Part shown: one piece after another, positions 7,134 to 63,700 of the stretch
Layout: every line of letters starts with the position of its first letter
How positions within the stretch are numbered: the stretch's first letter is position 1
Assembly: GCA_014526335.1 (NCBI GenBank)
Contig: JACTAT010000010.1
Span: 317,993 to 381,992, forward strand
Direction of reading: 5' to 3'
From: Chrysaora quinquecirrha
Lineage: Eukaryota > Cnidaria > Scyphozoa > Semaeostomeae > Pelagiidae
Length of the DNA stretch: 64,000 nt
Notes under the pieces: model-generated
What the model was told of the DNA's origin: nothing
Databases searched by the model: none
The model's input: only the letters and a program-made list of their open reading frames with translations
Translations under genes and position numbers: made by a program

Positions 7134-7235
7134 TGTTATGAAAATCGTGAAAATACATTTCTTAATTATCATGGTTATGTACTTGTTTCTTTTATTGAAA
7201 TTGAAAAACCTCTATATGAAAACGTACAGCGTGCC

Positions 7236-13675: not shown

Positions 13676-14074
13676 CTGCAGAAGGAAATGGCAAAAGCTT
13701 ATCATTATTTGATTCTGCACAAGAAAACTTTTACTTGATGTCCATGTTTGCGCAAATGTTTGATTGAGAATCCGAATCATTTTCGGAGGAAAATAAATTT
13801 TTCATTTCAATAAAACCAAAAGGCTGTTTCTGCGTCAAAAAAATAAGTTCGCTTTCTATCTTTGACACTTTAACTTATGTCTATAAATCTCGCTGCATCC
13901 GGGAGATCGTTGGTCTTAAAAATGCAAATATTTTACATTTCCGACTGCTGTAATTCGATCTTTTTCACGTATATTTTTTCATTTAAATATGTTCCTAAAT
14001 ATTTCGCCTCTGTCAACTGATTAGTTTCTAACGTTAACTCACTGAGGAATATTAGACGAAATAGCTCCTAAAAT

Positions 14075-15517
14075 GGTCAAATATCCGTTCTTCCTGTACT
14101 GTTCAGGGTCTTTGAAAAACTTATTCACAACCAACTATACGATTACTTAGACCACAATAAACACTTATTTGCTAATCAATCTGGTTTCAGAGGTTTCCAT
14201 AGTACAGTTACCTGCCTTTTAAATAGCACAGATGAATGGTACGTTAACATGGATAAAGGGAACTACAATGCGATTATTTTTATTGATCTAAAAAAGGCAT
14301 TTGACACTGTGGATCATGATATTTTACTATCTAAATTAAGGAAGTATGGTGTGGAAATTATTGAGCTTCTTTTGTTCACGTCCTATCTTAGAAACAGAAA
14401 ACAGTTCTGCAGAGTAAATGGGGTTTGTTCTAGCACTGAAGATATACATTATGGAGTTCCACAAGGTTCCTGCCTAGGTCCTCTTTTGTTCCTTATTTAT
14501 ATTAATGACCTTCCTTGTTCTCTTACAAAAGGCAAAGTTACAATGTACGCAGACGATACAAGTATTTCTTATTCTTCTAAAAGCTTAGAAGACATAAATC
14601 AAACCCTAAACAATGAACTTGACCACTTGAAACAATGGCTCAGGGGTAATAAGCTCTCGTTGAATATCCTTAAAACACAAGCGTTGATTATTGGTTCCCG
14701 TCCTAACATTAAGAAGATCACAAACGAGACTGTGGAACCCCCTAAGTTCTTTATTGGTGACTCTCTCGTTGAAGACGTCCAATACTCGAAGTATTTAGGT
14801 GTGACTGTTGATAGGAACCTGGACTGGAAGGAACATATCAACAATATACGTTCCAAAGTATCACGTCCAGTAGGCTTTCTGAAATATTCCAAAAAGTTTT
14901 TACCGAGAGACACCCTATGTAAGATGTATCGAGGCATTTTAGAGCCTCACTTTCGTTACTGTTGTTCGGTTTGGGGGAACTGTGGGGTGATCAATGTGCG
15001 AACCCTCCAAATGCTACAGAATCGAGCGGCTAGAATTGTCACAAAGAGCAAATTTGACACTCCAGCCACACCCTTGTTAAAAAGTCTGCAGTGGCCAACT
15101 TAAAACGAAATAATAACCAAAGAAACTGCTGCAATCATGTACAAATCGTTGCACGGTCTTACACCTGAATATCTAGCTAAATTATTCACAAGAAAATCTC
15201 ATCAAAACATCAGGAAACTGAGGAATACTGCCACTGATCTTTCACTTCCCTTAAGAAAAATGAGCAATGGGCAAAAAGCTATATCCTTCCGTGGAGCTTA
15301 ACTTTGGAATAATCTTACATATGATTGTAAACATGCACCTACCCTTGCCACTTTTAAAAGAAGACTTAATGATATTTTTCAACAATGTGTACATTATGTA
15401 TTTCTATTTTATATTGAATTTTATATAAAAAAAGGTAGCACAGCCCCCTGAAAAGCAATCCTTTAGGACTGTTGGGGTTACCGTGGTTAAATAAATTTAG
15501 ATTAGATTAGAAACATA
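14075..15517 (+). mobile_element. 5'-truncated CR1/L2-like LINE
   Basis: The insertion carries a reverse transcriptase and ends in a short ATTAG repeat. Its 5' edge cuts into the RT domain, as usual for target-primed integration. The 3' UTR (15,440-15,500) has the hairpin-containing block AGCCCCCTGAAAAGCA...GGGGTTACCG that is shared with the LINE fragment at 53 kb. It lies in what I infer to be an intron of the opposite-strand kinase-peptidase locus. Confidence 0.85.
14082..15450 (+). pseudogene. Non-LTR reverse transcriptase (C-terminal part)
   Basis: The frame opens with SVLPVLFRVFEKLIHNQLY and continues through RT motifs: FIDLKKAFDTVDH, GVPQGSCLGPLLF, YADDTSISY (catalytic YADD) and LGVTVDRNLDW. 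The C-terminal region includes LEPHFRYCCSVW and ends with AISFRGA and FKRRLNDIFQQC. Stops occur at 15,100-15,102 and within the AISFRGA region, so it is inactive. The endonuclease domain is missing because of 5' truncation. The clade is CR1/L2/Rex-like by motif style. Confidence 0.9.
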
Positions 15518-15684: not shown

Positions 15685-16217
15685 CTAAAATTATAATGGT
15701 AATATCGCGTTTAATTCCTTGATTTCAACCCTTTGGCGTTTTATGATAACTTGATGTGCTACTGTTCTCTGTTGTGTTAAAGGGATAGGTCTGCTACAAA
15801 CTGCTTTTGCTACCGAAGTACAGGTACGCATTGATCGGCTTGTGGGGAGGAGTAAATGCGATAAACATGTTCTAACAGGGAAATGTACTGTCCGTTTCAG
15901 CGGCTCTTGAGGCATAGTGAAGGAGAGGGCAAATGATTATAATGGCCAGGTATTGTTATCCATTGGTACAAAAAAAATAGTCCAGTTGAACCGTTGTTAT
16001 TTCCCTTTCCATTTGCATTTAGTTCCTGCCTCCTTACTTCTTAGTATTGTCAATTTTAACACTTTCTAGATAGAGTGCAGTTTATAAGGATATGGTCACA
16101 GGGAAACCCAAATTTTGGTTTTTTAATGTTTTGTTTGTTAAGGGTAGAAGGGTTAGTATAAATAAATTATTAGAGTCAACTTTGTATTTAGGCAGAAAGT
16201 CAACACAGAGATCTTAC

Positions 16218-17547
16218 CGAGATGAATGAAAGCTCTTCCTCTTTATCTTGCTTTGAAATTACATTAATAACTGACAAGGACTGGCCTGCTTCGACTTTAA
16301 CTTTGGCATATTCAAGACGTTTCCATAACCAAATGCAAGCAGTATAACATGATTTTTCTACATTTTCTTGTACATTGTAAACACGAATATGGGCATTTCC
16401 ATTACCATCCAGATCTTCGCTTATTGAATGCGTGTCAATGATAAATAAATTCCCTTCAAAGCATCCCGCAACCAAGGAGTATGGCTGGCAGGTGAATAAC
16501 GATGTGAACATTTTTATCTTTGCGCAGAGCTCTTTGATCTTCTCCACAAGTTTCTCACGACTGCAACTTTCAAGCACGCCATCTTTGTAGGGAAGCTCTT
16601 TCGAAACTTCAAGTAGGTTTGGCAAATGCTGGTTATTTTCCATTATAGAGTACGCCTCCATTAAGGTATAAGGCCTTTCTATTGAGCGACAAGGGTTCAG
16701 TTTATTAGGGTATTCTTCAATGATCGTTTCTACAATTTTCCGTCAGCCTGGAAACAAGAGCATCGTTGATTTCTTCAGCATATGGATAAGAAATTGAAGG
16801 ATTAACAATAACGAAAAGCACCATCCCTAGTGCCCAGACATCGACTGCTTTAAGATCTTGAAGATCGGCCGCTGCTGGGCGTAGTTCAGGAACAAGAATT
16901 TCGGGAGACATAAACGCTGGGCTCCCTCTGTCCAAACACTTGACTTAAGAGGCAGCTAGAGTTTGTGTTTGTATTAAACGAGAACGACTCTAACCAAAAT
17001 CTGTAATTTTACATATAATTGGTGGTTTGTTGCTTTGCCATTTCTCTATAAAACCTTCAGCATGTAATACTGGGTATTCTTCACTCCCAACTAATATATT
17101 TGCGGGCTTAAAGTCCCTGTGAACAATGTCTTTCTCGTGAAGGTGTCTGATCCCAGCAATAACCTCCTTTGCAATTACCATCGGAATATGTTTGAAACCC
17201 TCAAAATCGTATTTACAGTCTGCATGTTACAAAAATTGCCCAAGAGAATTCGTTACCTTGCTGTCTCCAAATGCTTGAAAGGAAAAGGCTACATACTCCT
17301 GCATCTGCGCTAATCGCGGAGATGTAGCTGCTCCTAAAAATTTCACAATGTTATCATGTCGAGCAAGGTTGTGAAGAAGCTTCTCCTCTTTCTTAAATTC
17401 CTTTTCGCATTCATTTATATCATTGATTACCTTCAGGACTACGCTCCGTGTTTCCAGAGATGACACGACAAATGTGCCACGATAAACTGTTGCAAAACTG
17501 CCACGTCCAATCTCCTCTTCCCGAACGACATTTTTCCATTTTAACAT
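16218..17547 (-). pseudogene. Protein kinase plus partial cysteine-peptidase domain, decayed
   Basis: One long exon starts MLKWKNVVREEEIGRGSFATV, a glycine loop, followed by the Lys strand VVLKV, the catalytic loop HRDFKPANIL, KITDFG, GSPAFMSPEI and VDVWALGMVLF. These are the order and motifs of a Ser/Thr kinase. In-frame stops lie at 17,224-17,226, just after DFG (~16,988) and near 16,946, and the frame shifts near 16,745. After the kinase the sequence matches the C-terminal half of the peptidase domain in the element at 38-48 kb: NLFIIDTHSISEDLDGNGN carries the presumed catalytic His/Asp. The half with the catalytic Cys (NACAFLS in the other copy) is missing, which fits an internal deletion. 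A donor at 16,218 leads in phase to further exons. Confidence 0.8.
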
Positions 17548-18230
17548 TTTCCATTTGCTTGAAAAAGGTTAGCTCTAAGTTTACTGAAGTCGTTATTGTA
17601 TTGCCGTTGTTTTTGCATGCTGTAAAGATAAAGCTCAGGAAAGATTTATATCTGAAGAATTAAAGAAGGACTAACTACTCGAATTGTGTCGTTTTATTTG
17701 TGCCAACCTGCCAACAAAATAACCAGTTTACAGGACGATGACGTCATCATTATTTCAAACGAGTTTTTCTCGAAACTGGTAGGTTGTATTGAAATACACT
17801 CAAAGACAACTTTACTCAGCGTTTTAAGATCTACATATTGCAGGAATCAGATTTCAAAAAGTGCAACTTTTTAAATTGACTTAATTAGGCATAATCAGGC
17901 GTTAATTAAGGGTAATTCCGGCGAAAATTTTTGAGGGCCCATCTTGGATTCGTGTTCTCCGACCTTTTTTTAGTAGATTTCAATTTAAAAACCCTAGGTT
18001 ACCCTCTTTGCTAGATTGTTGCAGAAAAAACCCTGTCTATTACGGAATTTTACAGAATCGTTAGAGAAAACGAATCAAATTGAATTATAAAACAACCAGC
18101 ATTGTCTGGATTTCTATATAAATAGCTAAATTGATTTTCTATATAGATAGCCTTTCTAACATGGAGTGCTAACGTAGCATGCTATCATCAATGGTATTTG
18201 GCACCTTAAAATTGAATTAATAATGTCATT
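17548..18230. other. No gene recognised
   Basis: Apart from short open frames this stretch shows nothing coding. It may include the promoter and 5' exon of the kinase-related locus, but I see no defined signal. Confidence 0.4.
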
Positions 18231-37331: not shown

Positions 37332-38300
37332 CTACCCTGACTTAGCATGTGCATTTAGGTTACTTGCAAAGAAGCGATTTCCCTCAGGGGAAAGATGCAT
37401 ACCACCTTTATCAAGATGTGTAAAGGCGATATTATTGTGATCTATGAAATCCCACCCCTGAGAGAGAGAATATCGCCTCAGTGCAAGATTAGTTTCAACA
37501 ACAGCAATATTTTTGGAAGTGTCATACGTCTGCAGAAAAATTGAGGAAACAGTGATGTTTACATCTGAGTGGATTTCTTTGATCTTCTTGCCAGTAGAGG
37601 TTACGTTTTCGATTATGTACTTTACTGGAATGCCTTTGGAAATATCATTACTGCCAATATGCAGGATCACTTCATCTGAGCCACCCAGTTTGCTATTGAT
37701 GGTCTGCTTGTGACGCGAAAACAGTTGCTGGCTTTTTAATCCACCAATGCCATGTGCTTCAGCAAATTTTGATAAGAGCTTTTCATCGTTTAGACGGCGA
37801 ATATGTGAGTCAACCAAAAGTAGTATTTTTCTTTGTCGGAAACCTTGATCTTTGTTGCTTAAACCATCATTTACTACTTCTGAATAACTCTTTGTATTGT
37901 TGGTGTTGGTTTTGCTGTTTTTCACTTTGTTGCTATGGTCATTACTGTCGCTGTCACTGCTTTTGAATCTGTTATTGCTGTTGCTATTGTTGTTCTTTTT
38001 CCTTCTCTTGTTCTTGCTCATTTTTTCAGCATTATCAGCAGAATTCGTGTATCGATCTTTATTAGGCAGTGAGGACTTTGATACCGTTTTGTATTTCTCA
38101 ATGTTGATGACTTGGTCTGGAATTGTTTTTTCTTTCTCAGAGGATTTCAAAATTTTAAATTCGTTATGTTTTTCCATCTGAATGGTTCTTAATTGTTTTG
38201 ATAATTTTTCCTCCGCACTTTCCTTTGTATGAGCTTCAGGCTCCTTGTCTTTTGTCTTGCATGTGAATCCATTGTGGAATTTTCTATAGAAGTATGCTGG
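37332..38300 (-). pseudogene. LINE ORF1 C-terminal part, SGNH esterase-like
   Basis: The frame holds a low-complexity Lys/Asn/Ser region (SKNKRRKKNNNSNSNN), then ILLLVDSHIRRL, EVILHIGSNDIS and GGMHLSPEGNRFF. The DSH, GSND and HLSPEGN blocks match the SGNH/GDSL esterase fold found in ORF1 of CR1-like LINEs of cnidarians. The frame nearest the insertion (38,180-38,338) carries another reading, so a frameshift near 38,200-38,300 is likely. The N-terminal half of ORF1 lies beyond the inserted element at 48,091-48,618. Confidence 0.85.
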
Positions 38301-38329
38301 ACACTCTTTGTTCTTGTCGAAGAGGCATT

Positions 38330-38338
38330 ACTTCCATT
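38330..38338. repeat. 9-bp target site duplication, left copy
   Basis: ACTTCCATT immediately precedes the terminal repeat GGCTATCTCTAAAATCAGG and is repeated exactly at 48,091-48,099. Nine bases is the usual duplication length for Mutator-like transposons. Confidence 0.95.
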
Positions 38339-38349
38339 GGCTATCTCTA

Positions 38350-39090
38350 AAATCAGGAACAACGGGAACATGAGGAACAAAGTAGGAACATGAGGAACAA
38401 GGCGGGAACAAAGTAGGAACATGAGGAACAAGGCGGGAACAAAGTAGGAACATGAGGAACAAGGTGGGAACATGAGGAACAAGGCGGGAACAAAGTGGGA
38501 ACATGAGGAACAAGGTGGGAACATGAGGAACAAGGCGGGAACAAAGTGGGAACATGAGGAACAAGGCGGGAACATGAGGAACAAGGCGGGAACAAAGTGG
38601 GAACATGAGGAACAAGGTGGGAACAAAGTGGGAACATGAGGAACAAGGCGGGAACAAAGTGGGAACATGAGGAACAAGGTGGGAACATGAGGAACAAGGC
38701 GGGAACATGAGGAACAAGGCGGGAACAAAGTGGGAACCTGAGGAACAAAGTAGGAACAAAGTGGGAACATGAGGAACAAGGCGGGAACAAAGCGGGAACA
38801 TGAGGAACAAGGCGGGAACAAGGCGGGAAAATGAGGAACAAGGCGGGAACAAAGTGGGAACATGAGGAACAAAGTAGGAACATGAGGAACAAGGCAGGAA
38901 CAAGGCGGGAACATGAGGAACAAAGTGGGAACATGAGGAACAAGGCGGGAACAAAGCGGGAACATGAGGAACAAGGTGGGAACAAAGCGGGAATGTAGCA
39001 GGAACTGGGGGAACGTGGTGGGAATCACTGGGAATGAAGGGGGAACAACGGGAAGGAAGCTGGAATGACCGGGATTGGCAGGATCACATT
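38350..39090. repeat. Minisatellite array inside left MULE end
   Basis: Variants of GGAACATGAGGAACAAGGCG followed by GGAACAAAGTG repeat about 20 times in higher-order mixtures of ~15- and ~32-bp units. From about 39,000 to 39,090 the array degrades into GGGAAC-type repeats. It is read in all three frames because the unit lacks stops, so the long open frames here (FVPALFLMFPLCS...) are not genes. Confidence 0.92.
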
Positions 39091-39869
39091 TTATTTTCAT
39101 TCAAAATTTGATTCTAAATTGCCAGAAGTAACATCTGTTTGCAACTTGAACAAGTACTTTTAATAAGAGAGGGTCTCTCTTTTTCAAAGTATTCAATGAG
39201 ACACCAAGTCATGGTGACATCTACCAAGACTTTAGAATTCAACAGGAAGAACGACATTACTTCAGATTGTGCTTTATTTTCAAGTACAAGCTGGCAACAA
39301 CGGAACAAAAATTTTAAACGTAGCAAAAAACTATAACTAAAACTGTCGACCACCGTCTACTAAAAACTGAAACATGTTTAAAAATGTATTCAATTGAATT
39401 AAATCCTTAATATACCAAATATATAACAAGAAATACATTTAGAAAGATCGCTGCGTGTACGGCACCTACAGATTAACCTATACATTAATCTTTTCATGTG
39501 TTCAAAATTATTAGTAAATTTTTGCAAACAAATGCACTTTTTCCTTTGTTGAAGGCCAAAAAACAGTCAAATTGCACGATTAGTGTGTCTCAAAGAACTA
39601 ACTGCAAGCTACGAAATCGAGTAAGAGCGGGAAACAATACATTCTGTCTGATGATTTCTTGTTTTGTTTTCAAATTAGTTTGCTAATAATTTTTCAGGGG
39701 CTGATTTTCTTATTTGAAAAGTCACTTAAATTTGCTGCAGATAGTCTATTCTGAGTATATGGAAAACATAGCAGATGCTTACTGTAACTTAATTGAATGA
39801 ATTCACAAAACGAAGAGACAACTAATACAAGTTCATCAAAAGTTGTTCCTTATAATATTTGAAAGAGAT
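39091..39869. other. Transposon 3' non-coding region
   Basis: This stretch between the left array and the SWIM-domain stop has no supported gene on either strand. It would contain the 3' UTR and polyadenylation site of the MULE transcript. Confidence 0.5.
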
Positions 39870-41428
39870 TTACGCTCTTAGGTGCCAACCAAACTCAGCT
39901 TCAAGTCTTGCTATGTGCTCTCTAGTAAGTAGGGGAATGAACTCGTTTGGAACTAGGAGCATTGAGCACTGGAACTGAGGATATCTCTTCTTCACACAAG
40001 TAAATCTGAAATGAAAATGGACATTTTGCTCACGCTCAGACCATTGCTGTATTCCAGTCTTCTGGTCCCTGAAAGATCTTATATCTCGATAAACAACGAC
40101 GATGTCATCTGGCTGCACAAGAGGAGGATTACGAATTACATTTCCGCACCCATAGCAGCGTGAAATTATTGTGCCGACAAGCCACTTCAACGTGAAAGGA
40201 TGGGCAGAAAACATCCGTGCAGGGTGGATTGGACTTGACTGCATTGGTTGACTAGTTGTTGTAGCTGCTGTTGCAACTCCGGGGATAACATGTGGAAATT
40301 GAGCAGATGTTGATATCGGCGGGTACAAGCTTGGAATGCCAGGTATATCAATTCTGACATGGCCAGAAGTCGCAACGTTATTACATTGAGGTTGTGGCTG
40401 TATTGTCTGCGAGCACACTTGGGCTTGTTGTTCTACAGCTGGCTGTGGAAGGTTACCTGGAATAACTGATTTTCTTGCTCTTGGTGCTATGCCCGTACCA
40501 GCACCCCTCGTATCGATGTCGTCGAGCAAATCAACGTCGAGCAAATCAACTTGCTCGGTAATGGCCGGCCGTTTTCTGTTGGACTTTTTTCTATCGCTTG
40601 GTTTTTTGCCTGCACTTGCAGGTCCCCCAGAGAGCGCCATGTCTGTGATTTTTGGCCCAAGTTTGGCCTTTTTGTACCAGTTTATCAATTCTGCTACGCA
40701 TCCTTTCAAGTGAGCAACTGCTAGAATGTGCTCGCAGAACTTAGTTGAACGATGTACACAAGCTCTGTCGCACACAAGAGAATTTCCTTTTCCTGGGGTA
40801 ACTACGTGAACATTATTGGTTGCTCCGGCAACTATAAAGGAACCATTTACTGCACCTGGTTTAGGAACAACCAAATTTGGATTACCTATTAGATGAGTTG
40901 CTTTCCGGAAAATAGACTCAAGAACAGGCTTTGGAATATTTGTTATGCCAGATTCCGACGCTGTCATAGCAAGGCTTGGTTTAATTGTTTCCACAGGAGC
41001 AGAAGCTTTTGGGGGCTCTTTTTGTATTGCAAACGGAGCTGTTATCGGGATAACATTATCAGCATAACTAGTCTGCTCTTCCATGCCAATGCCTCTAAAT
41101 TTTTCAAAGACTTTCAACCGTTGAGCATGATTCAGTTGCTCCCACTTCCTGATACCAGGAACAAGATTGGCAAACTCATCACGAACTTTGTATGGTCCTT
41201 TGCCAAACAGGGCACGATCTTCATTTCGATGCTGTGCTTCAACAAGGTTTTTTATCTCGGCTACAAATTCATGTGGACGTTTAGCTTCAAAATGTAGTCC
41301 ATACTTAATCATGAAATTACCTGCTTCCACGTCATTGTTTGTATACTGCAATGGTGGGTCACCCAGACCAGCTTCTATGCGGATCTTCTTCAACATGGAT
41401 TCCTTGATGATATCAGCCTGGAAGAAAA
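39870..41428 (-). CDS. MULE transposase C-terminal exon with SWIM zinc finger
   Basis: The acceptor TTTTTCTTCCAG precedes 41,428. The frame starts ADIIKESMLKKIRIEAGLG, continues through YTNNDVEAGNFMIKY (typical of the region after the MULE DDE domain), and has a SWIM finger CDRACVHRSTKFCEHILAVA near residues 220-240. A basic Lys/Arg region (GKKPSDRKKSNRKRP) could be a nuclear localisation signal. A Gln/Pro-rich linker leads to a terminal domain with a Cys pair (RCYGCGNVIR). SWIM fingers follow the catalytic domain in MULE transposases and bind DNA or protein. The frame is intact to its stop. Confidence 0.88.
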
Positions 41429-44400
41429 ACATTTAATTACATACTTGACTTCAAATCCTGAGAAAATTTTAAAGATGACTGTGTATCAGAAGCCAACTCT
41501 AAGCTGTCAAATTTATAAGAAGCTGCTTTATTCATATATCTACAGTCCATGACAAGGTAGACAGATTTTCTGAAACTCTAGCCAAGTAGATCAAACCAAA
41601 CATTTCTTTGTTAAACATAAATCTCCCTACAAATGTGAGGACTACCCCGTATTGACAAATCTCCGCATGCTTTTTTGACTAACCTTGAAAAAACCTGAAT
41701 AATATGTATTTGGCTTATCTTTTTAGCCATGTTTTGGCACGCTACTTCTTTTTGGAGAATTCAGTGCCAATCCAAGGTAAGGTTATTTCTATGATAACTA
41801 GCTATATCGATTTCAGGCGCCCAAACATTTTTATACAACAGGCTTTGAGAAGAATATTTTCTCCCTTTGTCAAAAGATTGTCTCATTAGAGTACCAAACG
41901 TAGGTACCTTTTCTTTCTTGAACCATTCGTAAAAGGAATTGCCTGATTTACAATTTTCTCGTTGATTCCATACAGCTTTTAATTCGTCTAGTTTTCGATC
42001 GAATTCTTCTTCGATATCGCAGTCAACGAGACCATAGTACTTAACGTGTTCTACTTGCTTTCCAAAAATTTCTTCAATGATTACTTTCACGTCTGTGCTA
42101 TTGAAACTTCTTTTTCCGAGTTCTCTCTTCAGATTGTCTTTGACATGCAGGAAACAGCGTAGAAAAACGGCAAATCTAAAGTTTCTCTTCAGACCATTGA
42201 TGAGACCTCTCTCTCCGTCCGTACCACATGCTAATATTCCTTCAAGCTCCGGTTGTTCAGTAATGAGCGTGTTTGCAAAATTTGAGTAGGTTTTCCAAAT
42301 TTTATTCTGGTGAAGCATAATCGGGCCAATGAAGACTGGGCTTTTGTTGGTTATCTTGCAACGCAGCTTAAGATTCCTGTACATAGTTACTGTGAGACTG
42401 AGATTTGTATCTATCACATTGAATGTCGGGTCAATAGCAAATACAGAGAATTCACGTGGATTGGTGCAGAAAGTGACGAGATCTTTTAATTGTGTGTCGT
42501 TAGCAAGAACCAGGAAAAAATCAGGATGAATTTTACATTCTCTTATGAAAATAGATCCTTTTGAATCCTGTTCTTCTCTTTTGGCTCGCTCTAGCATAAT
42601 CCAGATGTCATCTGCAATAGTGCTCCCCTTCTTCACTATCTCATCTCTAGCAAGGGACTCTCTCTTTCTTTTTGCATCGTACCTTGCGTTATATAAATCC
42701 TGAGGACCTCTCGGCAACTTATCAAGACTTTCGGCTCCAACTACATCTCCAAGAGAGCAATATATGCCATCCAAATTTCCTTCGGTGTCGACTGCCTTTC
42801 CAAAAGTGAGGATTTCATCGCATGCAGCGTACTTGGTGTAATGCGCCTGTATGGTGAATTGCCTTTCGAATTCCCATGTGGACGTAAGCTGGGTACAGGG
42901 TGTTCATCCTTTTCAAATTGATAATGAACGAAAACATTATTCTTTCTGACTCCTTTAATATCTAAAAATTGAAACAATAATTGTTTTGTTTACAATATTT
43001 ACACTGATCAATAAACGTTAAGACAAGCGAAATCTAGTTTTCAAACCTGTTCAAATCCCTAATATCAAAATCGAAAATTTGCGAAGAAATGTTTTTTTGG
43101 TTTGTCTATTGAGGATCATATAAAGATGTGAACAGGTTATTTGATAGGCGACGATTCATGCGATGAAGTACTTCTCTCGTCATCGGGAAAAGTGATTTGT
43201 AAGATTGTCAGCTATTTTCTATTGGAATGACGGAAGAATATTGTTCTATTTAATAATGGTCCGTTAGCTTATTATCCAACGCAGGGGAGGGAGGGGGATG
43301 CTGTTTTCGGTCATTCCAAAGAGGCAACTCGAAACCTAAATGGTGTCAGGCATAGATTTTTCCACAAGTGGCATACCACAATTGATGGGATATATATTTA
43401 TATATTCATGACAAATATATGGTGTCAGGCATATATTTGTACTAGTAAGTAGTATCATGAGGTTTGGATGGGTTTAGCGGCGTAGAGCGTGGTCTTGAAT
43501 TGTTACTCTTTACAAAGCATGTAATGGAAATTTATACCAGGTATTCTGATGCTACGAGAGAAACTAAAAAAGAAAAGCGTAACTCTCACCTTCCAAGATT
43601 GCTATGGTTTTATGAACTTCATCATCTGACTTATTAACATAGTATATTCGTTTTAGAGAAAACACATCGTTCTCGTTCTCCGCAGAAATGCTTTCAGTTC
43701 TGCACAGCGATATTGAGTTGCCACCACCGCCAGCCTCTCTTTCAACATGGTAGAGTCGTGAAGGAGAGCCTACACGTTTCCAGGACCCCATGGAGTCGCA
43801 CTTGACGTCATCAAAAAATTTCAAACCGGATGTGTCGATGACAAATGAGACATTTTGTGCTACATTGGAAGGGATTCCAGTGCATAATTTTTGAGGCTCC
43901 AGATCAAGCAAAAAGATGGAGATGAGCTCCTTGGTGGTATACGATGTCTTTCTTCTATGAAACACTGGGGTTTTAGTGTTCCCATTGTATGGTTCACCAA
44001 GTGGAATCAGATGGGTGCCTGAAGCAGCTTTCGAAGAATGTTTCCTACAAGGCAAGATTTACATTCATACAAATTACTCTTTTTGGTTTTGTTTTTTATG
44101 ATTGGAAACTGAGACTCTTGGAATATGAGTGACACGCAGCAGTCAGTAAAAAGTAAACACTAATTTCATTGTCTGAGCTGAGCTCACAACCAAGACTAAG
44201 GCATCAAACCATAGAGAACCAAGTACATCCAAACCTGTTGATGGTATACAGTAACACAGTTCAAGGACAATAACAATGAAGTAAATGCAACCAGTGTTAT
44301 AAGCCCAAATGTAAAGCACTTCTTGGCAATATTTGGGGCAACTGCCCAGAATCTAGTTGAAACCCTAGTCAAGAAATCAGAAATGGAGCAGGGTAGATAT

Positions 44401-47243
44401 CTGTACATGAAAACAACAAAAAGGCCTACAAAGAACAATATAAATTATTTACTCTTGTTTTGGAACATAATATGTGTCAACTGTTGCATATCACTTATTT
44501 CCCATTCAGAAAAAATGATACACAGTCTTAGTTGTGAGCCTTGTTTAGTTCATCTAAGCAGAAGCAAATTGATGACCTAGTTCTTATTGACATACCATGC
44601 TGGCTTTGTGTAAGTAATTTCCAGTCCTGCATCTGATTCGCTTGTGCTTGTTGAACTGTCATCATTTGAATTCAATACTGTAGACCTTCAAAGATAAATG
44701 AAAAGTGGTTCAGAAGAGTCAGAATTGAATTCATAAACGAGCATGATTGACAAGTTGGTAACAGAAGAAATCAACATTTCAAGACTTGTGTACTTACTTT
44801 CCTGCCTTTGCGTATGTTATTTCAAGTTCTGCAGTTGATCCACTGCTACTTAGGTTATTCTTTTCTGGTTCAATATGAATGTCTTTAGACCTGGATGAGA
44901 TTTAAGTGAAAGGGGTATAAATTATGATACCATGCTGAACTATGAGAACCATTCTTCTTAAAACAAATAGGGCAAAAAGGAAATAACATTTTGCCTACAT
45001 ATAATGTAATTACCAGAACCAAAATCTAATGACTGAAATTAAATGCCAAAGACAAAACAGTTTCACAAATTTCATATTTTCAAAACATACCGTGTATCCA
45101 TAACAGAAACCTCAACAAAAGACGGTGTACATGAAAGAGGGACATTGGAACTGGACAGCCGTTTTGAAATCCACTGTAAGAGACTTATTGCTGACCCAGA
45201 TCTTACAACAGCTCCATTGCCATTTCCTCCAAGACAAAAGCTTATAGGATGTGTTTCAACAACAAATAAATGTCTTCCAGATGCTAAAACAACAAAAATG
45301 TATTGGGAAGCTTGAAAAATGGAGCACTTTACACATCCTGACATTTGAGTAGAACTTTTCATGAGGTCAAGTTCTTTTGTGGCACATTCTTGGAATGAGT
45401 AGTCATAAAGCTTCTCATTCTTCACAACTTTTTCCGAGTAACATAATGTATTGCTCAGTAGATTATGGTCTTTCAGAATCTTTGCTGCTTCATAGATGTC
45501 ATGCATATCAGGACCACGAAATTTATTGAATCTGCCTGGAAAATTGATTATTACCTCAGATGCCAGATCGACAAGCTCAGTCTCCCACACTTCAATTTTT
45601 TTGATTGTGACAATATTTGATCAATTATGCCAATGGAAAGGAAAGCACATGCATTAGTACCATCATTTGTTGGAATAATTGCCTCTCCTAGTAATTGACT
45701 GTCTCTTATTTGCTGTGCAACTTCTGCATCACTTCTTTCTAATGCCGATGCTTGGGAGACATTAAGATTGAAAATATCCACGACTTCTTCCTCATGTATT
45801 GTGGCTTCTAGTGGGCTAATAAGGCTTCGTAATTCAGGATTGAACTTTAAGTTGTCATATATAATTTTCCTCAGCTTCTGGTTATAGCTTGATTGAACTT
45901 GAAAATATTTTTCAGAACCAGAGGGAAGCTGTTGTGCAATCAAAATCTCTTTAAGGACGTCTTCAAGCTCCACTACATGACCTTTTTTTTTCTTGATGTA
46001 GTCATCAATTTCAAACTGATATGGATAACGCTGATCTGGGTTAATCGTGACAAATATGGTTAGAAGCAGTGCCCAAATATCAACTGCTTTCAACTGATCA
46101 ATGTTGGCTGAAGCTAACCTGAAGTTATCGATGTAAACCTCAGGGGCCATGAAAGCAGGGCTTCCTCGATTTAGACATTTCGTTTGGGTGTTTGTGACCA
46201 TGGCCTTTGTGGCACAAAGTTTTGATCTGCCTTCGCCAAAATCACCCAGTTTGGAAACAATTGGGGATTTTGCAAACAACTCTTCACAATTTCCCATACT
46301 TGCAGCATAATGAAGATTTGAAACAAGGACATTTGCAGGTTTGATGTCTCTATGGACAATGTTCAAATTGTGAAGGTAGTTGACAGCACTGATAATGTCA
46401 CCTGCAATAAAATTGCTCACACCCGGAAAGAACGTGACCAGATCTTCTTCATCAAGGTAATGTAAGAATTGCTGCAATGTGTGCACAGTCTTGTTGCGAT
46501 TGAAAGGAGAAAATGTGAATTCACAGTATTCCATCAAAATAGAAAGTGGCTTGTCACATACTGCCATAAACTTGACTATGTTTTTGCAACAAATGCCACT
46601 CAGAATCTTGGCTTCTTTGGCGAAGGTTTTGCCGTTGATGGATGGATCGTGCAGCTTCTTTACTACAACTGATGATCCCTTGTAGTCACCCTTCTCCACC
46701 AAAGCAAAAGAACCATGTCCTGTAAAAAGACAGAGTCATACATTTCCAAATAAAAGGGGATTGCTAATTTGAATTGACATCAATATCTGGCAACTTTGCA
46801 AAAGACTGCCATTCATCTTGTTAATTCTACATGTTCATTCTACGCGAGGACTGAGTCTGTACATTTCAGGATTTCAGGATAAAGGTGCAGCATCATCTCG
46901 GCATCAGGGACATAACTTACATCACTATGCTTACATCAACATCTCTTGCTTTTTTAACCTCGATATATTGCACTGTCAAGTACTCTGCACCACGTTTACC
47001 TTACAAAAGTCCTTGTAGGACTTTATTAGAAGTTATAAGTTGTGGCGGTTGTAATAGTAGACTAGGTACCTTATAAATGCAAGTATTGTGTTATAAAGTA
47101 AAGAAGGGCTAGATAGTGTAAGCAATCTTACCGATCAGAACTTTGTCCTTCACCTGCGAAATATCAAATCTTGGCAGCTCTGTGGAAAAAATATTTGCGT
47201 GCAGGACTTCCCTCTTTGCTGGGATCGATGGCAAACGAAACAT
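39870..47243 (-). CDS. Kinase-peptidase-MULE transposase multi-exon gene (inferred single gene)
   Basis: Exons on this strand splice in phase at five tested joins: 47,132 to 46,719 (completing the Gly loop), ~45,091 to ~44,890, ~44,805 to ~44,695, ~44,600 to ~44,043, and ~43,591 to ~42,964. This links a Ser/Thr kinase, a cysteine-peptidase-like domain, a Ser-rich linker and the MULE transposase. The last exon (39,870-41,428) adds a SWIM finger. Frameshifts occur at an A7 run near 45,600 and near 42,800. I could not find a clean donor for the last intron (41,430-41,770). The kinase could phosphorylate, and the peptidase process, the transposase or host ubiquitin-like conjugates; this is inference. 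Alternative: two genes in tandem, with the linker exons belonging to the second. Confidence 0.65.
41770..42964 (-). CDS. MULE transposase catalytic (DDE) region
   Basis: The exon starts after TTTTTAG at 42,964 with DIKGVRKNNVFVHYQFEKDE and has the N-terminal PY/STL signature (SPYRRITPSTLHAMK). It then shifts frame near 42,800 and continues SLGDVVGAESLDKLPRGPQ. The catalytic core has FAIDPTFNV (first Asp), CGTDGERGLINGLKR (second Asp) and FLRCFLHVKDNLKREL, as in MULE transposases; the Glu is probably in the EEEFDRKLDELKAVW region. The frame ends at TLDWH just past the expected exon end. Confidence 0.88.
43591..44043 (-). CDS. MULE transposase N-terminal exon
   Basis: Bounded by TTGTAG before 44,043 and GAAG|GTGAGA after 43,591. 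It encodes KHSSKAASGTHLIPLGEPY and later LKFFDDVKCDSMGSWKRVG, RLYHVEREAGG and LKRIYYVNKSDDEV. The DDxKCDxMGSW block is the N-terminal domain seen before the catalytic part in animal MULE-type proteins. Joined in phase to the exon at 42,964 it gives ILEDIKGVRKN. Upstream it completes a Trp codon with the linker exon at 44,600-44,695. Confidence 0.75.
44600..44890 (-). CDS. Two duplicated Ser-rich linker exons (LEITY repeats)
   Basis: Exon ~44,805-44,890 encodes SKDIHIEPEKNNLSSSGSTA followed by ELEITYAKAGK. Exon ~44,600-44,695 encodes STVLNSNDDSSTSTSESDAG followed by LEITYTKPAW. Both have the plan: acidic/Ser-rich stretch, then [AG]-x-LEITY-[AT]-K. They sit in the same phase, so they look like a duplicated exon. 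The LEITY core after a Ser/Asp-rich stretch could be a short interaction motif (SUMO-interacting type); this is inference. Confidence 0.6.
45091..46719 (-). CDS. Ser/Thr kinase domain and cysteine-peptidase-like domain
   Basis: The kinase part has GHGSFALVEKGDY (Gly loop), SVVVKKL (Lys), IVHRDIKPANVLV (catalytic loop), KLGDFGEGRS, GSPAFMAPEV and VDIWALLLTIF: all residues needed for activity. The peptidase part follows: NDGTNACAFLSIGI carries the presumed catalytic Cys and HLFVVETHPISFCLGGNGNG the presumed His plus acidic/Asn residues. This Cys ... (V/I)(E/D)TH arrangement resembles papain-fold deubiquitinase-like families (OTU; herpesvirus tegument USP type). A frameshift at the A7 run near 45,600 separates the two halves of the peptidase; a sequence error is possible. 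The first exon (47,132-47,243) supplies the start. Confidence 0.82.
47132..47243 (-). CDS. First coding exon of the kinase gene
   Basis: ATG at 47,241-47,243 begins MFRLPSIPAKREVLHANIF and ends DKVLIG, with donor ATCG|GTAAGA. Joining to the acceptor TTTTTACAG before 46,719 makes the glycine loop IGHGSFALV, which confirms the exon. The upstream 370 bp to the right array (47,244-47,610) would be promoter and 5' UTR; no defined element is seen. Confidence 0.75.
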
Positions 47244-47609
47244 GTTTTCAAGTTTCACGTGCCTGACCTGATAAAGTTACCCGGCCATGAGGGCACGTGA
47301 AGCTTCCCAGAAAAAGATCTAATATTAGAGTGTTATTTTCCCGCCAAACGGAAACGAGGCCACGCGACGCAGGCCAACTCTGGGTCAGCTCGTCAACGCT
47401 TCAACGCCCAACGCAAAATGTCCAATGTTCGACTTAAAACAAATAGTAGCTAATAGCTGAACAATAGCTTTTTTAAGACCTGCTTAAATTCACCATGAAC
47501 AACAACAGCAATTCGCTACACTGACCGTTTGAGCAGCTTTCCAACAACAACAAGAACAAAATATGGTGCTGCGAATACTTATTTCACTGAAACCTGTGTA
47601 ATAAGTCTA

Positions 47610-48075
47610 ACATTAAGTCTTTTCCCACTTTGTTCCCGATGTTCCCGCCTTGTTCCTCATGTTCCCGCTTTGTTCCCGCCTTGTTCCTCATGTTCCCACT
47701 TTGTTCCCGCCTTGTTCCTCATGTTCCCACTTTGTTCCCGCCTTGTTCCTCATGTTCCCGCTTTGTTCCCACCTTGTTCCTCATGTTCCCACCTTGTTCC
47801 TCATGTTCCCACTTTGTTCCCGCCTTGTTCCTCATGTTCCCGCCTTGTTCCTCATGTTCCCACTTTGTTCCCGCCTTGTTCCTCATGTTCCCACCTTGTT
47901 CCTCATGTTCCCGCCCTGTTCCTGCCTTGTTCCTCATGTTCCTACTTTGTTCCTCATGTTCCTACTTTGTTCCCGCCTTGTTCCTCATGTTCCTACTTTG
48001 TTCCTCATGTTCCTACTTTGTTCCCGCCTTGTTCCTCATGTTCCTACTTTGTTCCTCATGCTCCCGTTGTTCCTG
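47610..48075. repeat. Minisatellite array inside right MULE end (inverted)
   Basis: Units TTGTTCCTCATGTTCCCACT and TTGTTCCCGCC, the reverse complement of the left array units, repeat about 14 times up to the terminal repeat at 48,061-48,090. Its length (~465 bp) differs from the left array (~650 bp), so the ends have gained or lost units independently. Long open frames in it are non-genic. Confidence 0.92.
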
Positions 48076-48090
48076 ATTTTAGAGATAGCC

Positions 48091-48099
48091 ACTTCCATT
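48091..48099. repeat. 9-bp target site duplication, right copy
   Basis: ACTTCCATT follows GATTTTAGAGATAGCC and is identical to 38,330-38,338. Confidence 0.95.
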
Positions 48100-48618
48100 T
48101 GTATTTTTGTATAACTGAATTTTTAAACTTGAGTTTTCGTTGACCAAAGAAATATTTTTCCTCCTGTCTTCGATCAATAATTCGTTCAATTTAGCATTAT
48201 TATCAATCAATTTACTCAATATAGAAAGGAAAGTTTCTACTAGTGGCCGAGAGTAGTCTTATGTTTGCTTCTTCGGTGTAGCAAACCTGGCTAAGAAATT
48301 CTGGAAAGAATCTTTTTTATTCAGGCTAGTTGCTTCTTCTTTCTCCGATTCACTTTCTGCTGTTTCTTCTGGAATTTCAGTTGTAGCTTCAGCATTATCC
48401 ATATCCTCTTTTACGAATAAAGAAGGAAGACTGTTGGAAGTGGGCTTGCTAAATACTACTCCTTGTTCCATCAGACTGTCGAGGGAGTCTTCTCCATCGC
48501 TAAGATTTAGGCCAAAATGCTTTGAAGCAAACGCTAAGATATTCTCTCGGTTTCTCTGGACAGTTCTAATTTCCTCTATGCTTTTCAATATCAACGAATC
48601 ATTTCTACAGTGCGCCAT
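48091..48618 (-). pseudogene. LINE ORF1 N-terminal part, split by the MULE
   Basis: The frame starts MAHCRNDSLILKSIEEIRTV and runs to KKQT, meets a TAA at 48,259-48,261, and continues in the same frame as YSRPLVETFLSILSKL and NISLVNENSSLKIQLYKNT, ending in Asn-Gly-Ser at the MULE duplication. The helical, charged segment looks like the coiled coil of LINE ORF1 proteins. Across the insertion one reading continues as NASSTRTKSVQH at 38,330 and below. I assign it to ORF1 from position and frame rather than a family signature. Confidence 0.6.
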
Positions 48619-51417: not shown

Positions 51418-51830
51418 AAACCCTAAAACTAACCCTAACCCCAATCGAAAACCCTCCCAGAACCTTAACCCTAAAGCCCTACACTAACCCTAAAACCCTA
51501 TCCTAACCCAAATCCCTACCCTAAATCTAAAACCCCAGTCTTACCCTAAAACTCTACCCTGACTCTAAAACCCTACCCTGACCCTAAAGTGCTAACCCTA
51601 ACCCCTAAACCCATCCCTAGCCTTAACCCTAAAACCTTAATGAAACAATAGCCCTACACCTTACCCTAAAACCTTTCCCCAACAACTTTAGCCCTAAAAC
51701 CCTACCCTAACCCCAACCCTTAAACCCTTCCCTAGCCCTAACCTTAAAACCTTAATCTAATCTTAGCCGTACACCCTACCCTAAACCCTAAAACGCTACT
51801 CTAACCCCAACCCCAAAACCCTACTCCATT
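51418..51830. repeat. Degenerate telomere-like CCCTAA tract
   Basis: About 400 bp of CCCTAA, CCCTAAA and variants (CCCTAACCCCAACCCT, CCTTAACCCTAAAACCC). This is the C-rich strand of the metazoan telomere repeat TTAGGG, but mixed and mutated. It lies inside a transposon, so it is not a chromosome end in its present form. Confidence 0.85.
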
Positions 51831-56639: not shown

Positions 56640-59270
56640 CTTGACTGCACAAGAAATGACTTGTTATAGGTTAAGTAATTATGAACCTACATGCTCCCAA
56701 CCATGTCATTAAATGTAATTAGAACGAGTTGTCTCTTATAGACTGCACTTGGCAGAAAGCCATGTGAGACAACTTGTTATAGGTTAAGTAATTATAAACC
56801 TACATTGTCCCAACCATGTCATTAAATGTAATTAGAACGAGTTGTCTCTTGTAGACTGCACTTGGCGGAAAGCGATGTGAGACGACTTGTTATAGCCCGG
56901 GCAAAATTGGCTCAAGGATAACCTAGGTTTTTCCTAGGTCAACCTAGGTGTATCTCTCAAGGAAAACCTAGAAATGAACCTAGGTTTTCCTTGAGCCAAT
57001 CCTTGAGAAGACCTAGGTTTTCCTAGGTTTTAAATTGGAACAACGTAGCTGTATATGGAAGGAAAAACAGTTCAAGGAAAACCTAGGTCTGCTCAAGGAT
57101 GCCATATTTGGATGTCATCAGCCGATATTTCTGATGACAGGAATACCTAGGTTAAACCTAGGTTTTCCTAGGGCAATCAATAACAATTATTTGATAGAAA
57201 ACCTAGGTTTTACCTAGGTTAACCTAGGTATAGAATACATCATTACCCTAGATAAACCTTGAGAAGATGACACTCAATTTTCATTCAAAATTAATAAAAG
57301 TAGAAATTATGATTGTAAAGGCCCAATGTTATTTTTTATTCTGCATTGTTTCATGAAACGCCTCTAATAAAATAAACTTCAGCTCCATCAACACGCGATT
57401 TTCCAACACATTCCCAACATGAATCAATGAATTCCGAATACTAGATTGAGAATTTCTGATACTGAATGTTGGAATTAGAAGAACATGAACGCCAAATGTG
57501 AAAAACATGAAGCAAACACATTTTAACCCGTCTTTAACCACTCTTAGTAGATCAAATATAAACTGAGACCGAATGAAAAGGCTCATACAAGAAATAAACT
57601 AATTTGCCTTTAGTACTTTTTGTCATTTGTAGTATTTAAACTAATGGTAAATAGCTATTTTTGGAAGCTTTGAGTTCCAAAATTAATAAGCTCAAAACGT
57701 TGAGCGCTTATGGAAATAAGTCATATGCTAAAACGCTTTAAATGCTTTTAGTAGCAAATTGATGAGCTAATTTTAGCCTCTGCATAATAGGCGTTATCTA
57801 AACTACAAAACAACACGAATCTTAAACCATACTTGAAGAATGCAACAACTTACAACTCTTCACCTTCAAGTTTGTTCTGCCAATTTAGCGACAGTTTCTG
57901 CATTTTCAGTCTTTCATAGTAAAAATAGGTCCTCATAGTCATCGACTGTTTATCAGCATCGTTGTTTGGTTCATGAAATTACTGTGCCCATTATTAAAAA
58001 CCATAAAAACTGTGCAATTTTGAACAGACGAAAATCGTGTCTGCCTTCCAGAAGCAAAGTCGTTATCAAACCGTTAGAATTGTATTTTGGCGCCAAAACT
58101 TTTCGTAAGCTCAAGGTTTTCTCAAGGTGCCGTGTGTTTGATTTTCTCAAGGTTTCATGAAATACCTTGAACTAAAAGGAGTTCATTGGCAATTCAAGGA
58201 TTTTTCAAGGTCCTTGGTTCAAATATGGTTCAAGGTTGGATCTAAATCCTTGAAACAACAGACGTTTTTTAATAGTGTTCAAGGTTTTCTCAAGGTCCTT
58301 GAGGTACTGAAATCAAGGTTTTTTTCGCAACAAGAATTACTGCTCAAGGATCCTGGGGTTTCCTTGATCATCCCTAGGTTTTCTCAAGGAAAATCAACGA
58401 AATTCCAGGATCCTTGATTTGGTAAATTGGCTGGGAGGTTAAGTAATTATAAACCCATAGTCTCCCAACTATGTCATTAAATGTAATTAGAACGAGTTGT
58501 CTCTTGTAGACTGCACTGGGCGGAAAGCGATGTGAGACGACTTGTTATATTTTAAGTAATTATAAACCTACATTATCCCAACCATGTCTTTAAATGTAAT
58601 TAGAACGAGTTGTCTCTTGTAGACTGTACTTGGCGGAAAGCGATGTGAGACAACTTGTTATAGGTTAAGTAATTATAAACCCATAGTCTCCCAACCATGT
58701 CATTAAATGTAATTAGAACGAGTTGTCTCTTGTAGACTGCACTTGGCGGAAAGCGATGTGAGACGACTTGTTATAGGTAAAGTAATTATAAACCCATATT
58801 CTTGCAACCATGTCATTAAATGTAATTAGAAGGAGTTGTTTCTTGTAGACTGCACTTGGCGGAAAGTGATGTGAGACGACTTGTTATAGGTTAAGTAATT
58901 ATAAACCTACATTGTCCCAACCATGTCATTAAATGTAATTAGAACGAGTTGTCTCTTGTAGACTACACTTGGCGGAAAGTAATGTGAGACGACTTGTTAT
59001 AAGTTAAGTAATTATAAACCTACATTCTCTCAACTATGTCATTAAACTTAATTAGAACGAGTTGTCTCTTGTAGACTGCACTTGGGGGAAAGCGATGTGA
59101 GACAACTTGTTATAGGTTAAGTAATTATAAACCTACATTGTCCCAACCATGTCATTAAATGTAATTAGAACGACTTGTCTCTTGTAGACTGCACTTGGCG
59201 TAAAGCGATGTGAGATGACTTGTTATAGGCTTAGTAATTATAAATCCACATTCTCCCAGCCATATCATTA
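56640..59270. repeat. 113-bp satellite array, interrupted
   Basis: The unit ACTTGTTATAGGTTAAGTAA ... ATTAGAACGAGTTGTCTCTT GTAGACTGCACTTGGCGGAAAG recurs at about 113-bp spacing: two units at 56,655-56,895 and about seven at 58,436-59,250. It is interrupted by the CCTAGG-rich element. Units are well conserved. It is non-coding. A region without genes (59,270-60,086) follows. Confidence 0.88.
56896..58435. mobile_element. CCTAGG-rich element inserted in the satellite
   Basis: The 1,540-bp insert interrupts the satellite unit, leaving AG on both sides. The ends are imperfectly inverted (CCCGGGCAAAATTGGCTCAA... against CCCAGCCAATTTACCAAATC...AAGGAT). The left 350 bp is packed with CCTAGGTTTTCCTAGGT and TCAAGGAAAACCTAGG motifs; the right 300 bp with TCAAGGTTTTCTCAAGG motifs. 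The centre (57,240-58,090) is plain AT-rich sequence with no recognised gene. It looks like a non-autonomous element with repeat-rich subterminal regions that might bind a transposase. Confidence 0.65.
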
Positions 59271-60086
59271 AAGTATCCCTGCAATTTCAATCTTTACATG
59301 TACATTGATTTGCCATAGGTTAATTTTTTGTCAGATTGGTTTGTTTTGTTTATATTATAGCAAGGCCGTCAAAGGAAGCTGAGATTGTGAGTATTTGATT
59401 TGATGACGTAATGGTTTTTTGACATCTTAATATTGTTGTCAAAATTTTTGGGGGGGCTTAATCCCTGTAAAGATAGATAAATTAGGTTTTTTAAGTTGCA
59501 CTTTCTAAACTATAACCTGGTCGTTGAGCAGAGAATAAAGATATTTTTTGTATATTGTCATTTCTTCAATAATAAGATGCTGGATTTGCAGTTTGTTTCA
59601 ATATTTTCTTGAAACAACATAGCAAAACAAAAAACCAAATCTATATATTTCTATTCTTATAACGTAACATCAACAATAATTTGGACTTAAGTTTTGAATT
59701 TAATTTTGGTCTCTTATGCACTGTTGGTCTTCTTTTAGCTGTCTTAAAAGACGAATACGTTGGGAGTCACTTTCAGCAAAGCTCCATGTCATCTTTGGAA
59801 GCAGCTGATCCACATTTGTCATATTGACAAAATCTTCTGCAGCTAAGATTACACCAACACCACATATCACCCGCCAATATATCTTATATAATTGCAATAT
59901 ACATTGAAATTTTTCGTGCAATTATATATCATCTGTAATCATTTATCAGAATATTTTATTTATAAATATATTTAGAGTATAGATACATATTAACTGCACA
60001 TATATTGATTTGATTTACTATATTTATGATTAAAATCTCTTAATAGATCGAGCTTTTTTCAAATATAAAGTATATTTTGCAAATAT

Positions 60087-62409: not shown

Positions 62410-63700
62410 TTAAAATTCCGCAAATCCAACGCATTCATATTCCAATGCTTTTTCGAATATTGCAAAGAATTCCTCTTTACTTGACAATCCTGTTGGCAGT
62501 TGCAGGGTGGTGGTCAGCCGGCAAAAATTCCAAGAAAATTGTCTTGTCTTGAGATGAAGACATATCTTCAAAGCCTGTTGAAAATTTGAGTAGATCTGTT
62601 AGTTGACGCTGAGTGGCTTGCTTTATGAAACTTTTGACCCAAGACATGCTCTCTACCTTCTTTGTGTCATCCTCAGAGTGTTCCCATTGAATGAGGTTGA
62701 GAAATTCATCCGTATCAATGTATTTGGGAGAGCCATGAAACAAGCTTCTTGCAGCCTCCAAGCAAAGGTATTCTTTAAAACCCATGAAAATCAGGCCTTC
62801 ACGAATTGCTTTAACTTTCCCTCCTCTTCGTGTTATGGTCTCCTCGTGCAGTAACAAATTAATTAGAATGTCCTTGTTGGTCCATGTTATCGCTTCTGTT
62901 GGTTCCCAATCTGAGGAGCTGATTATCTGCTCAAATGCAGGCCAATCAGCAGTATTAAATGTGTCGTTGATTGCTTCATTCGTATCACATTTTCTCAGCA
63001 ATTTCACAAAGTTGATGAGGCAACCAGTGGCGCTGTTTATTGGGATATCTTCTAGCGAAATATCTCCGGATGTACCATCCTCATTGAACAACACATCCAT
63101 AACCCATGGTGCTAGAAAGTTAGAATGAGGACCACTCTGCAGCAGACTGTGTGCAATTATGATGCCAAATATCTTAAATATTTGTAGATTGCCTCCAGCT
63201 CTCTTAGGGACAAGCAGTCATTCTTTGCCATCGACACACTCAAATAATTGCTTCTTTCCTTCATTAAATACCTGGGTGAAAAATTCAATTTTGAGAGCCC
63301 CTGCATCTATACCATCCTCACCATCATATGTTATACATAATCTTTGAAAAAGTTTATTACAGTCACCCATCTTTGCTTTATAGAAGGTCAAAGCATCTCT
63401 CCATAAATTTGCACGAGAAACTCGTAGCAATGTGCTTTCGTCACTGCTCTGAAGCATTCTTACCTGGTAGCTCTTAAGTATGGCAGGTGCGTTTTCAGGT
63501 GGACTTGATGCAGACATGGTTGCAGCTGATGGGTTCTGTGACATTAAGTTGTCCATTGCTTCATTGACATCAAGTGCCCTACTCAAGGCTACCTCTATGT
63601 CTTCAACTGCAATGTCTGGCAAGATTTCTTGAATGTACCTGATATTTGCTGGTGTGTTCAGTAAATTCTGTTGGTGGCTTGTTGCTATCTCATTAGCAAG
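62410..63700 (-). CDS. CUE-HECT E3 ubiquitin ligase-like, with stop and frameshift
   Basis: The exon starts after TTTTTAG at 63,700. It begins with a CUE-like ubiquitin-binding segment (ANIRYIQEILPDIAVEDIEV, then ALDVNEAMDNLM). A HECT N-lobe follows (NLWRDALTFYKAKMGD, DGEDGIDAGALKIEFF), then a TGA near 63,220 and continuation (RAGGNLQIFKIFGIIIAHSL). The C-lobe has TIFLEFLPADHH, shifts frame near 62,515, and continues LQLPTGLSSKEEFFAIFEKA, ending ECVGFAEF at TAA 62,410. A recognisable active-site Thr-Cys is not clear at the shift. HECT ligases form a Cys-ubiquitin thioester. It resembles the multicopy G2E3-type HECT proteins of cnidarians and fish. Upstream exons lie outside the window. Confidence 0.78.

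Follow-up and report, generated by a model that had tools for sequence, protein, structure and literature searches.

A MULE-type transposon of Chrysaora quinquecirrha with a putative transposase joined to a Ser/Thr kinase and a VTD-type deubiquitinase domain

Can the transposase of a DNA transposon carry a protein kinase and a peptidase in the same polypeptide? The question is raised by a gene on the minus strand of a 64,000-nucleotide stretch of the cnidarian Chrysaora quinquecirrha (assembly GCA_014526335.1, contig JACTAT010000010.1, positions 317,993 to 381,992), the whole of which is called the window here and numbered from its first letter. A first-pass annotation had claimed that a kinase and a peptidase were spliced in phase to the transposase of a Mutator-like element (MULE). 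With good confidence, the locus can be read as the insertion of a MULE of the cut-and-paste type whose transposase would comprise, within one polypeptide, a Ser/Thr kinase, a VTD-type deubiquitinase, a flexible Ser-rich linker, and a DDE core with a SWIM-like finger.

The gene was reconstructed from 47243 to 39870 as seven exons separated by six GT-AG introns, and each of the joins keeps the frame. The exons are as follows (residues numbered in the spliced reading).

47132..47243, minus strand: exon 1, with the start codon and the kinase N-terminus, GT-AG join in phase
45091..46719, minus strand: exon 2, remainder of the Ser/Thr kinase (about 46719-45764) and predicted VTD-type deubiquitinase domain (about 45763-45091), from Pkinase, motifs and fold
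44798..44890, minus strand: exon 3, Ser-rich linker with an LEIT motif
44596..44685, minus strand: exon 4, Ser-rich linker with a second LEIT motif
43590..44044, minus strand: exon 5, end of the linker and MULE N-terminal region
41908..42961, minus strand: exon 6, remainder of the N-terminal MULE region, then the DDE core with D971, D1042 and C1063xxH1066
39870..41417, minus strand: exon 7, with E1176 as the catalytic Glu, a zinc finger of SWIM-like type (about 40781-40720), a C-terminal region with Cys-x-x-Cys, and the stop

The order of domains is therefore kinase, Cys-peptidase-like domain, Ser-rich linker, MULE N-terminal region, DDE and SWIM-like finger. Five in-phase joins from the kinase to the SWIM exon had been annotated; the frame-keeping GT-AG junctions and the order were borne out, whereas the joins number six and two frameshifts, considered below, lie inside exons.

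The Ser/Thr kinase is complete in the window copy, as had been noted, with a Pkinase match above the Pfam cut-off (E 6e-25) and the G-loop, VVVKK, HRDIKPAN, DFG and APE motifs all found; all 18 rows of the kinase alignment A1 also match Pkinase. A protein search gave 41 matches, comprising 33 relatives of this kinase and 8 ordinary kinases, and 24 of the 33 relatives have a VTD match as well (E 1e-4). Only kinases were returned by a whole-model VIA search, as expected. Kinase-like matches were found at 42 loci of viral contigs, with best-segment identities of at most 33% except for three short ones at 52-60%, and a second search of viral contigs found a single locus, whose sequence looks like part of a phage-type polymerase.

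The peptidase-like domain carries the motifs NDGTNAC and VETHP in the window copy. On the basis of fold and motif, it is predicted to be a VTD-type deubiquitinase with a papain-like fold of the type found in tegument deubiquitinases, which agrees with the first-pass view of a peptidase other than ULP; the profile searches gave no VTD match. In a 15-row alignment of the domain the Cys and the His are present in every row and the acid is Asp in 8 and Glu in 7, the Cys-His spacing being 133 in the database protein P0001. The window copy has Glu, and two loci of the same genome, L068 and L070, have the Asp of the VTD Asp-x-His motif. A sequence search of PDB with the single domain gave no match, a search with the 15-row profile retrieved only two Mx1 chains (E 0.23 and 0.64), and Herpes_teg_N was not among the 20 Pfam families matched by the 18 members scanned.

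The linker that follows contains the LEIT motif twice in the window copy (44890-44596), and the pattern [D/S/A]-x-[L/I]-[E/Q]-I-T was seen in 4 of 8 linkers, a count made with no control. SUMO-interacting motifs were also considered, and they are unsupported: a pattern of that kind occurs in 4 of 8 linkers, the shuffled mean being 2.8 and 30% of 2000 shuffles reaching 4.

MULE transposases have a DDE triad with C-x2-H between the second D and the E, and in the window copy these residues are D971, D1042, C1063, H1066 and E1176. In alignment A5 (35 rows) they are found, among rows with a residue at the position, in 19 of 19 (D), 20 of 21 (D), 21 of 21 (C), 23 of 23 (H) and 20 of 22 (E). The Pfam families MULE and Transposase_mut are matched at E up to 1 in 5 and 6 of the 35 members, respectively, Transposase_mut in P0113 scoring 18.3 bits against a cut-off of 21. 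A SWIM-like motif, Cys-x3-Cys...Cys-x-His, is present in exon 7, and Pfam SWIM is matched at E up to 1 in one member of the 35 (P0108, 18.8 against 19.6 bits).

The gene lies within an element of which both ends are present.

38339..48090, 9752 bp: MULE-type DNA transposon with both ends, from terminal repeats and a 9-bp target duplication
38330..38338, plus strand: left target site duplication, ACTTCCATT
48091..48099, plus strand: right target site duplication, ACTTCCATT
38339..39074, plus strand: left terminal arm, a 93-bp terminal repeat followed by a GGAACA-type minisatellite
47622..48090, minus strand: right terminal arm, an inverted copy of the same minisatellite and the terminal repeat

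The termini are inverted repeats alike at 92 of 93 terminal bases, with the inverted minisatellite arms next inward. The flanking ACTTCCATT is a perfect 9-bp duplication, which fits the 8-11 bp, usually 9, of MULEs. As the first-pass annotation had it, all exons of the spliced gene sit inside this single pair of ends, and judged by its ends the window element is an ordinary MULE-type insertion. The evidence for insertion is the target duplication rather than the 102-codon frame, possibly due to chance, that is obtained when the flanks are joined to reconstruct the empty site.

The association of the two halves was followed through the genome from which the window comes (740 contigs, 328 Mb in all). 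At least 122 Pkinase matches, at least 116 MULE matches (query P0044) and at least 82 kinase-VTD matches (query P0001) were obtained, with scoring confined to the best 120, 115 and 80 candidates respectively, and the test scored MULE exons, not the element ends of each locus. At least 46 of the 66 merged kinase-VTD loci have a MULE DDE match up to 9 kb downstream on the same strand, none has one on the opposite strand and one has it upstream (chance expectation 0.1), and none of the 76 other kinase loci has a MULE DDE match downstream. Twenty loci were chosen by the shape of their kinase match before any MULE search, and 18 of them show kinase, VTD and MULE on one strand in that order, the exceptions being L062, with no VTD match, and L071, with no MULE. 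Together with the window and a further locus, L080, these 20 loci make up 22 loci in 10 families at 80% DNA identity. A chance association is excluded by this linkage and by the 33 kinase relatives, 24 with VTD. In the kinase-VTD tree the MULE-linked loci are scattered, with 3 changes, no better than shuffled labels; little can be drawn from this tree because its outgroups are very long branches. The window also contains a second, decayed kinase-VTD remnant (16200-17568, minus strand), whose kinase matches P0021 at 49% and whose VTD, with the motif DTH, matches P0046 at 47%; no MULE match accompanies it within the window.

The fusion is found in single frames elsewhere in the genome. L068 and L070 each hold an intronless ATG-to-stop frame, of 1211 and 1206 codons respectively, with kinase, VTD, linker and the MULE DDE motifs through the catalytic Glu, and L080 (1961-6229) has an intronless frame of 1422 codons that joins the kinase to the MULE through its C-terminal region, with no VTD match; this last frame is possibly a domesticated gene. 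Among public gene models, VTD is joined to MULE in P0046, P0047 and P0088, and kinase to MULE in P0115. P0042, under the database name Actinostola sp., has kinase and VTD plus a weaker match to the MULE C-terminus (E 7e-6, single comparison). The kinase-VTD protein P0004 and the MULE protein P0090 are probably on the same 11,439-bp contig, and P0003 and P0060 are probably on the same contig of 2,738,133 bp. Dendronephthya, Paramuricea, Desmophyllum, Clytia and Actinostola are among the named sources of relatives. P0042 also has, near its C-terminus, a stretch resembling a HECT ubiquitin ligase; its residues 889-1026 match window positions 63044-63481 (minus strand) at 31%.

The first-pass annotation had recognised that its proposal would fail if kinase-peptidase genes lay only outside MULEs save for this copy; the 46 of 66 linked loci and the two intronless one-frame fusions show otherwise. 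Its central claim, that a kinase and a peptidase other than ULP have been added to a MULE, is supported by the anatomy of the window copy, the genome-wide linkage and the one-frame relatives.

Between families, the nonsynonymous divergence (dN) of the kinase part was 0.34-0.35 in 8 locus pairs over 240-243 codons, all of them L052, L055, L056 or L057 against L058 or the window, and that of the MULE part was 0.29-0.37 in 11 locus pairs; the synonymous divergence (dS) was saturated in both comparisons. Three near-identical pairs gave dN/dS of 0.86-1.17. The kinase thus appears to be constrained between families much like the transposase, and constraint while jumping with little after insertion would be the usual picture of an active transposon. 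L052-L056 and L057/L059 have about 2570 bp of their 5' side in common, with identities of 99.1-99.7% in the comparisons made and of about 99.5% for the kinase-VTD halves. Past the VTD match, the similarity of L052 and L057 breaks off sharply, each continuing into a MULE half that is divergent from the other's. If the assembly is right, a recent module swap is apparent among L052-L057 and L059, and the kinase-VTD half would behave as a module that can be exchanged, the junction lying in the non-coding DNA that follows the VTD exon.

Several observations weigh against a fused, working transposase of this kind. In the window copy itself, one frameshift lies in exon 2 near 45600, between the VTD cysteine and the remainder of the VTD domain, and another in the MULE N-terminal part of exon 6 near 42740. 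A further copy, on C179, with 98.7% identity to the window over 8.2 kb (98.0% over 9.1 kb), is intact at both breaks, exon 2 being one frame of 554 codons and exon 6 lying in one of 362 codons, and an open frame also spans the frameshift sites in two database proteins, P0001 (98% identical) and P0044 (97%). An intron in exon 2 was ruled out and the break there is taken as a frameshift, since neither P0001 nor the C179 copy is interrupted at that place. The C179 copy itself is without one terminal arm. Element ends are established at the window copy only: the homology borders of L052 and L054 are without a target duplication, and no terminal repeats were seen near L080. The L068 and L070 frames end past the DDE core, the SWIM part being outside the frame or not found.

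Domain assignments and counts add to these points. Pfam MULE is below its curated cut-off (14.3 bits in the window and 19.9 in L070, the highest given, against 27.6), and since this holds in a divergent clade the superfamily rests on duplication length, DDE with C-x2-H, terminal repeats and weak profile matches together, the last of these being consistent with a MULE. For the peptidase, a Foldseek comparison with PDB produced nothing at E below 0.001, none of the sequence searches led to a VTD, and Glu in place of Asp in the window copy and 6 other rows of 15 makes VTD activity appear less sure in the window copy. The constraint claimed within the kinase-VTD half concerns its kinase and comes from one family pair over 240-243 codons. 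Copies that are nearly identical may represent haplotypes of one insertion, so that the loci are not all independent. Only 46 of 105 MULE loci have a kinase-VTD match upstream, the other 59 having none, and 20 kinase-VTD loci are without a MULE match of the P0044 type. Seven of the latter were examined: five carry a divergent MULE (L066, L068, L070, L085 and L086), and the other two, L084 and the window remnant, have no MULE in the sequence examined.

If the fusion is as described, the transposase half would bind the terminal minisatellite arms and cut, and the fusion would put deubiquitinase and kinase wherever the transposase binds. A VTD held at the ends could strip ubiquitin from the transposase or host proteins, leading to slower degradation or changed repair signalling, and by analogy its most likely part would be to protect the transposase or end-bound host proteins. 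Self-cleavage, a role that had been put forward earlier, and polyprotein processing are not favoured, as characterised VTDs cut ubiquitin chains (PMC9741609). Targets of the kinase could be the linker, the transposase itself, or proteins of host repair or silencing, and by phosphorylating them it would control the timing and place of transposition; an independent role for the kinase is suggested by L062 and L080, in which it is kept where the VTD match is absent. We propose tentatively, as a possibility short of an even chance, a transposon lineage with self-regulating signalling transposases, in which kinase and deubiquitinase would act in cis, the module would move among divergent MULEs, and jumping would be coupled to the phosphorylation and ubiquitin state of the host (cell cycle, DNA damage or germline).

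A doubtful alternative is that kinase and VTD act in trans on host immunity or silencing, the fusion serving mainly for joint expression. The enzymes are indeed separable, the VTD match being dispensed with in L062 and L080, and the modules appear to swap between transposases; against this, fusion or close linkage over 10 families argues, indirectly, for action at the element ends. It is unlikely that the element holds two genes, with kinase-VTD and MULE transposase transcribed separately, as are mudrA and mudrB of maize MuDR. Models P0043 and P0045 begin after the VTD, and exon 2 stays open for 5 codons beyond its donor site before a stop; however, the joins of the window copy keep frame, P0088, P0046 and P0047 link VTD to MULE, and two separate messages are unlikely for the family because of the intronless frames of L068, L070 and L080. 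Passive capture, by which the MULE acquired a kinase-peptidase gene of the host accidentally and retains it unused, is very improbable: MULEs do acquire host gene fragments (PMC6446971) and the near-identical copies are unconstrained, but this explanation is largely refuted by the same-strand linkage at 46 of 66 loci, and the 10 families among the 22 loci clustered, the part-fused protein models and one-frame fusions, and the apparent constraint on the kinase speak against it too, as does the lack of an identified free-standing host kinase-VTD source gene, with 13 kinase-VTD loci not looked at.

The surroundings of the transposon contain other repeats. Long open frames on the minus strand stand on either side of it (37332-38327 and 48259-48618), presumably retroelement-like by their look, and a 343-codon open frame (14072-15103, plus strand) resembles a reverse transcriptase of a long interspersed element (LINE). 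Degenerate, telomere-like CCCTAA-type repeats occupy 51462-51824, and tandem arrays with units of 183 bp and 113 bp are found at 7234-8015, 56659-56895 and 58436-59272.

Relatives of this element are found many times over in the same genome, and the mobile DNA thus seems equipped with cell-signalling tools of its own. If the kinase is active, a phosphorylation writer and a ubiquitin eraser would be brought together at a DNA-cutting site, which opens to direct test why deubiquitinases are so common on transposons and by what means an element reads the condition of its cell; an exchange of kinase-VTD among transposases would mean that a superfamily of DNA transposons evolves combinatorially.

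Compared with known kinases, that of the element differs from ULK1/ULK2, TAK1 and ALK2 (about 24% identity to ALK2), and all 20 loci picked on their kinase match carry a VTD or MULE match too. Erven et al. 2022 (PMC9741609) describe VTDs in Helitrons (DrT1 and DrT2) and also mention that VTDs of cnidarians occur in fusion with domains associated with transposons. Those VTDs and the herpesviral large tegument deubiquitinases (peptidase C76) resemble the window domain in predicted fold, in the order Cys...(acid)-x-His and in similar spacing, and the Helitrons resemble it in a VTD carried by a transposon; they differ in the Helitron host, in having no kinase, with MULEs unmentioned in that paper, and in Asp where the window copy has Glu. 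Animal MULEs (PMC6446971, Table 1) are alike in superfamily, in 9-bp duplications, in SWIM in some groups, compared with a SWIM-like motif here, in end minisatellites in some, namely Phantom and Rehavkus (the latter a subgroup recognised by a PHD finger), with which the window element has minisatellite arms in common, and in a deubiquitinase-class domain in one, MuDR-6_HM; that domain is OTU rather than VTD, and no kinase is given there. Ginger elements with OTU or Ulp1, and MULEs with Ulp1 (PMC2836005), are similar in having a transposase fused to a ubiquitin or SUMO protease domain, with Hydra among the hosts of Ginger1 and the Ulp1/OTU MULEs, whereas in Ginger1 the protease is C-terminal and of other families, the transposase is another, and there is no kinase. 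The word 'kinase' is absent from the main text of PMC9741609, PMC6446971, PMC2836005 and PMC13359780, and no description of a kinase-carrying transposase was found among the titles and abstract openings listed from the open literature, Repbase and most subscription journals lying outside that search. The first-pass supposition that the combination was undescribed thus stands for the kinase fusion within the literature searched, whereas the peptidase is only partly new (PMC9741609). Fusions of a transposase with a SUMO or ubiquitin protease are known; one that includes a complete protein kinase as well was not encountered within the same literature.

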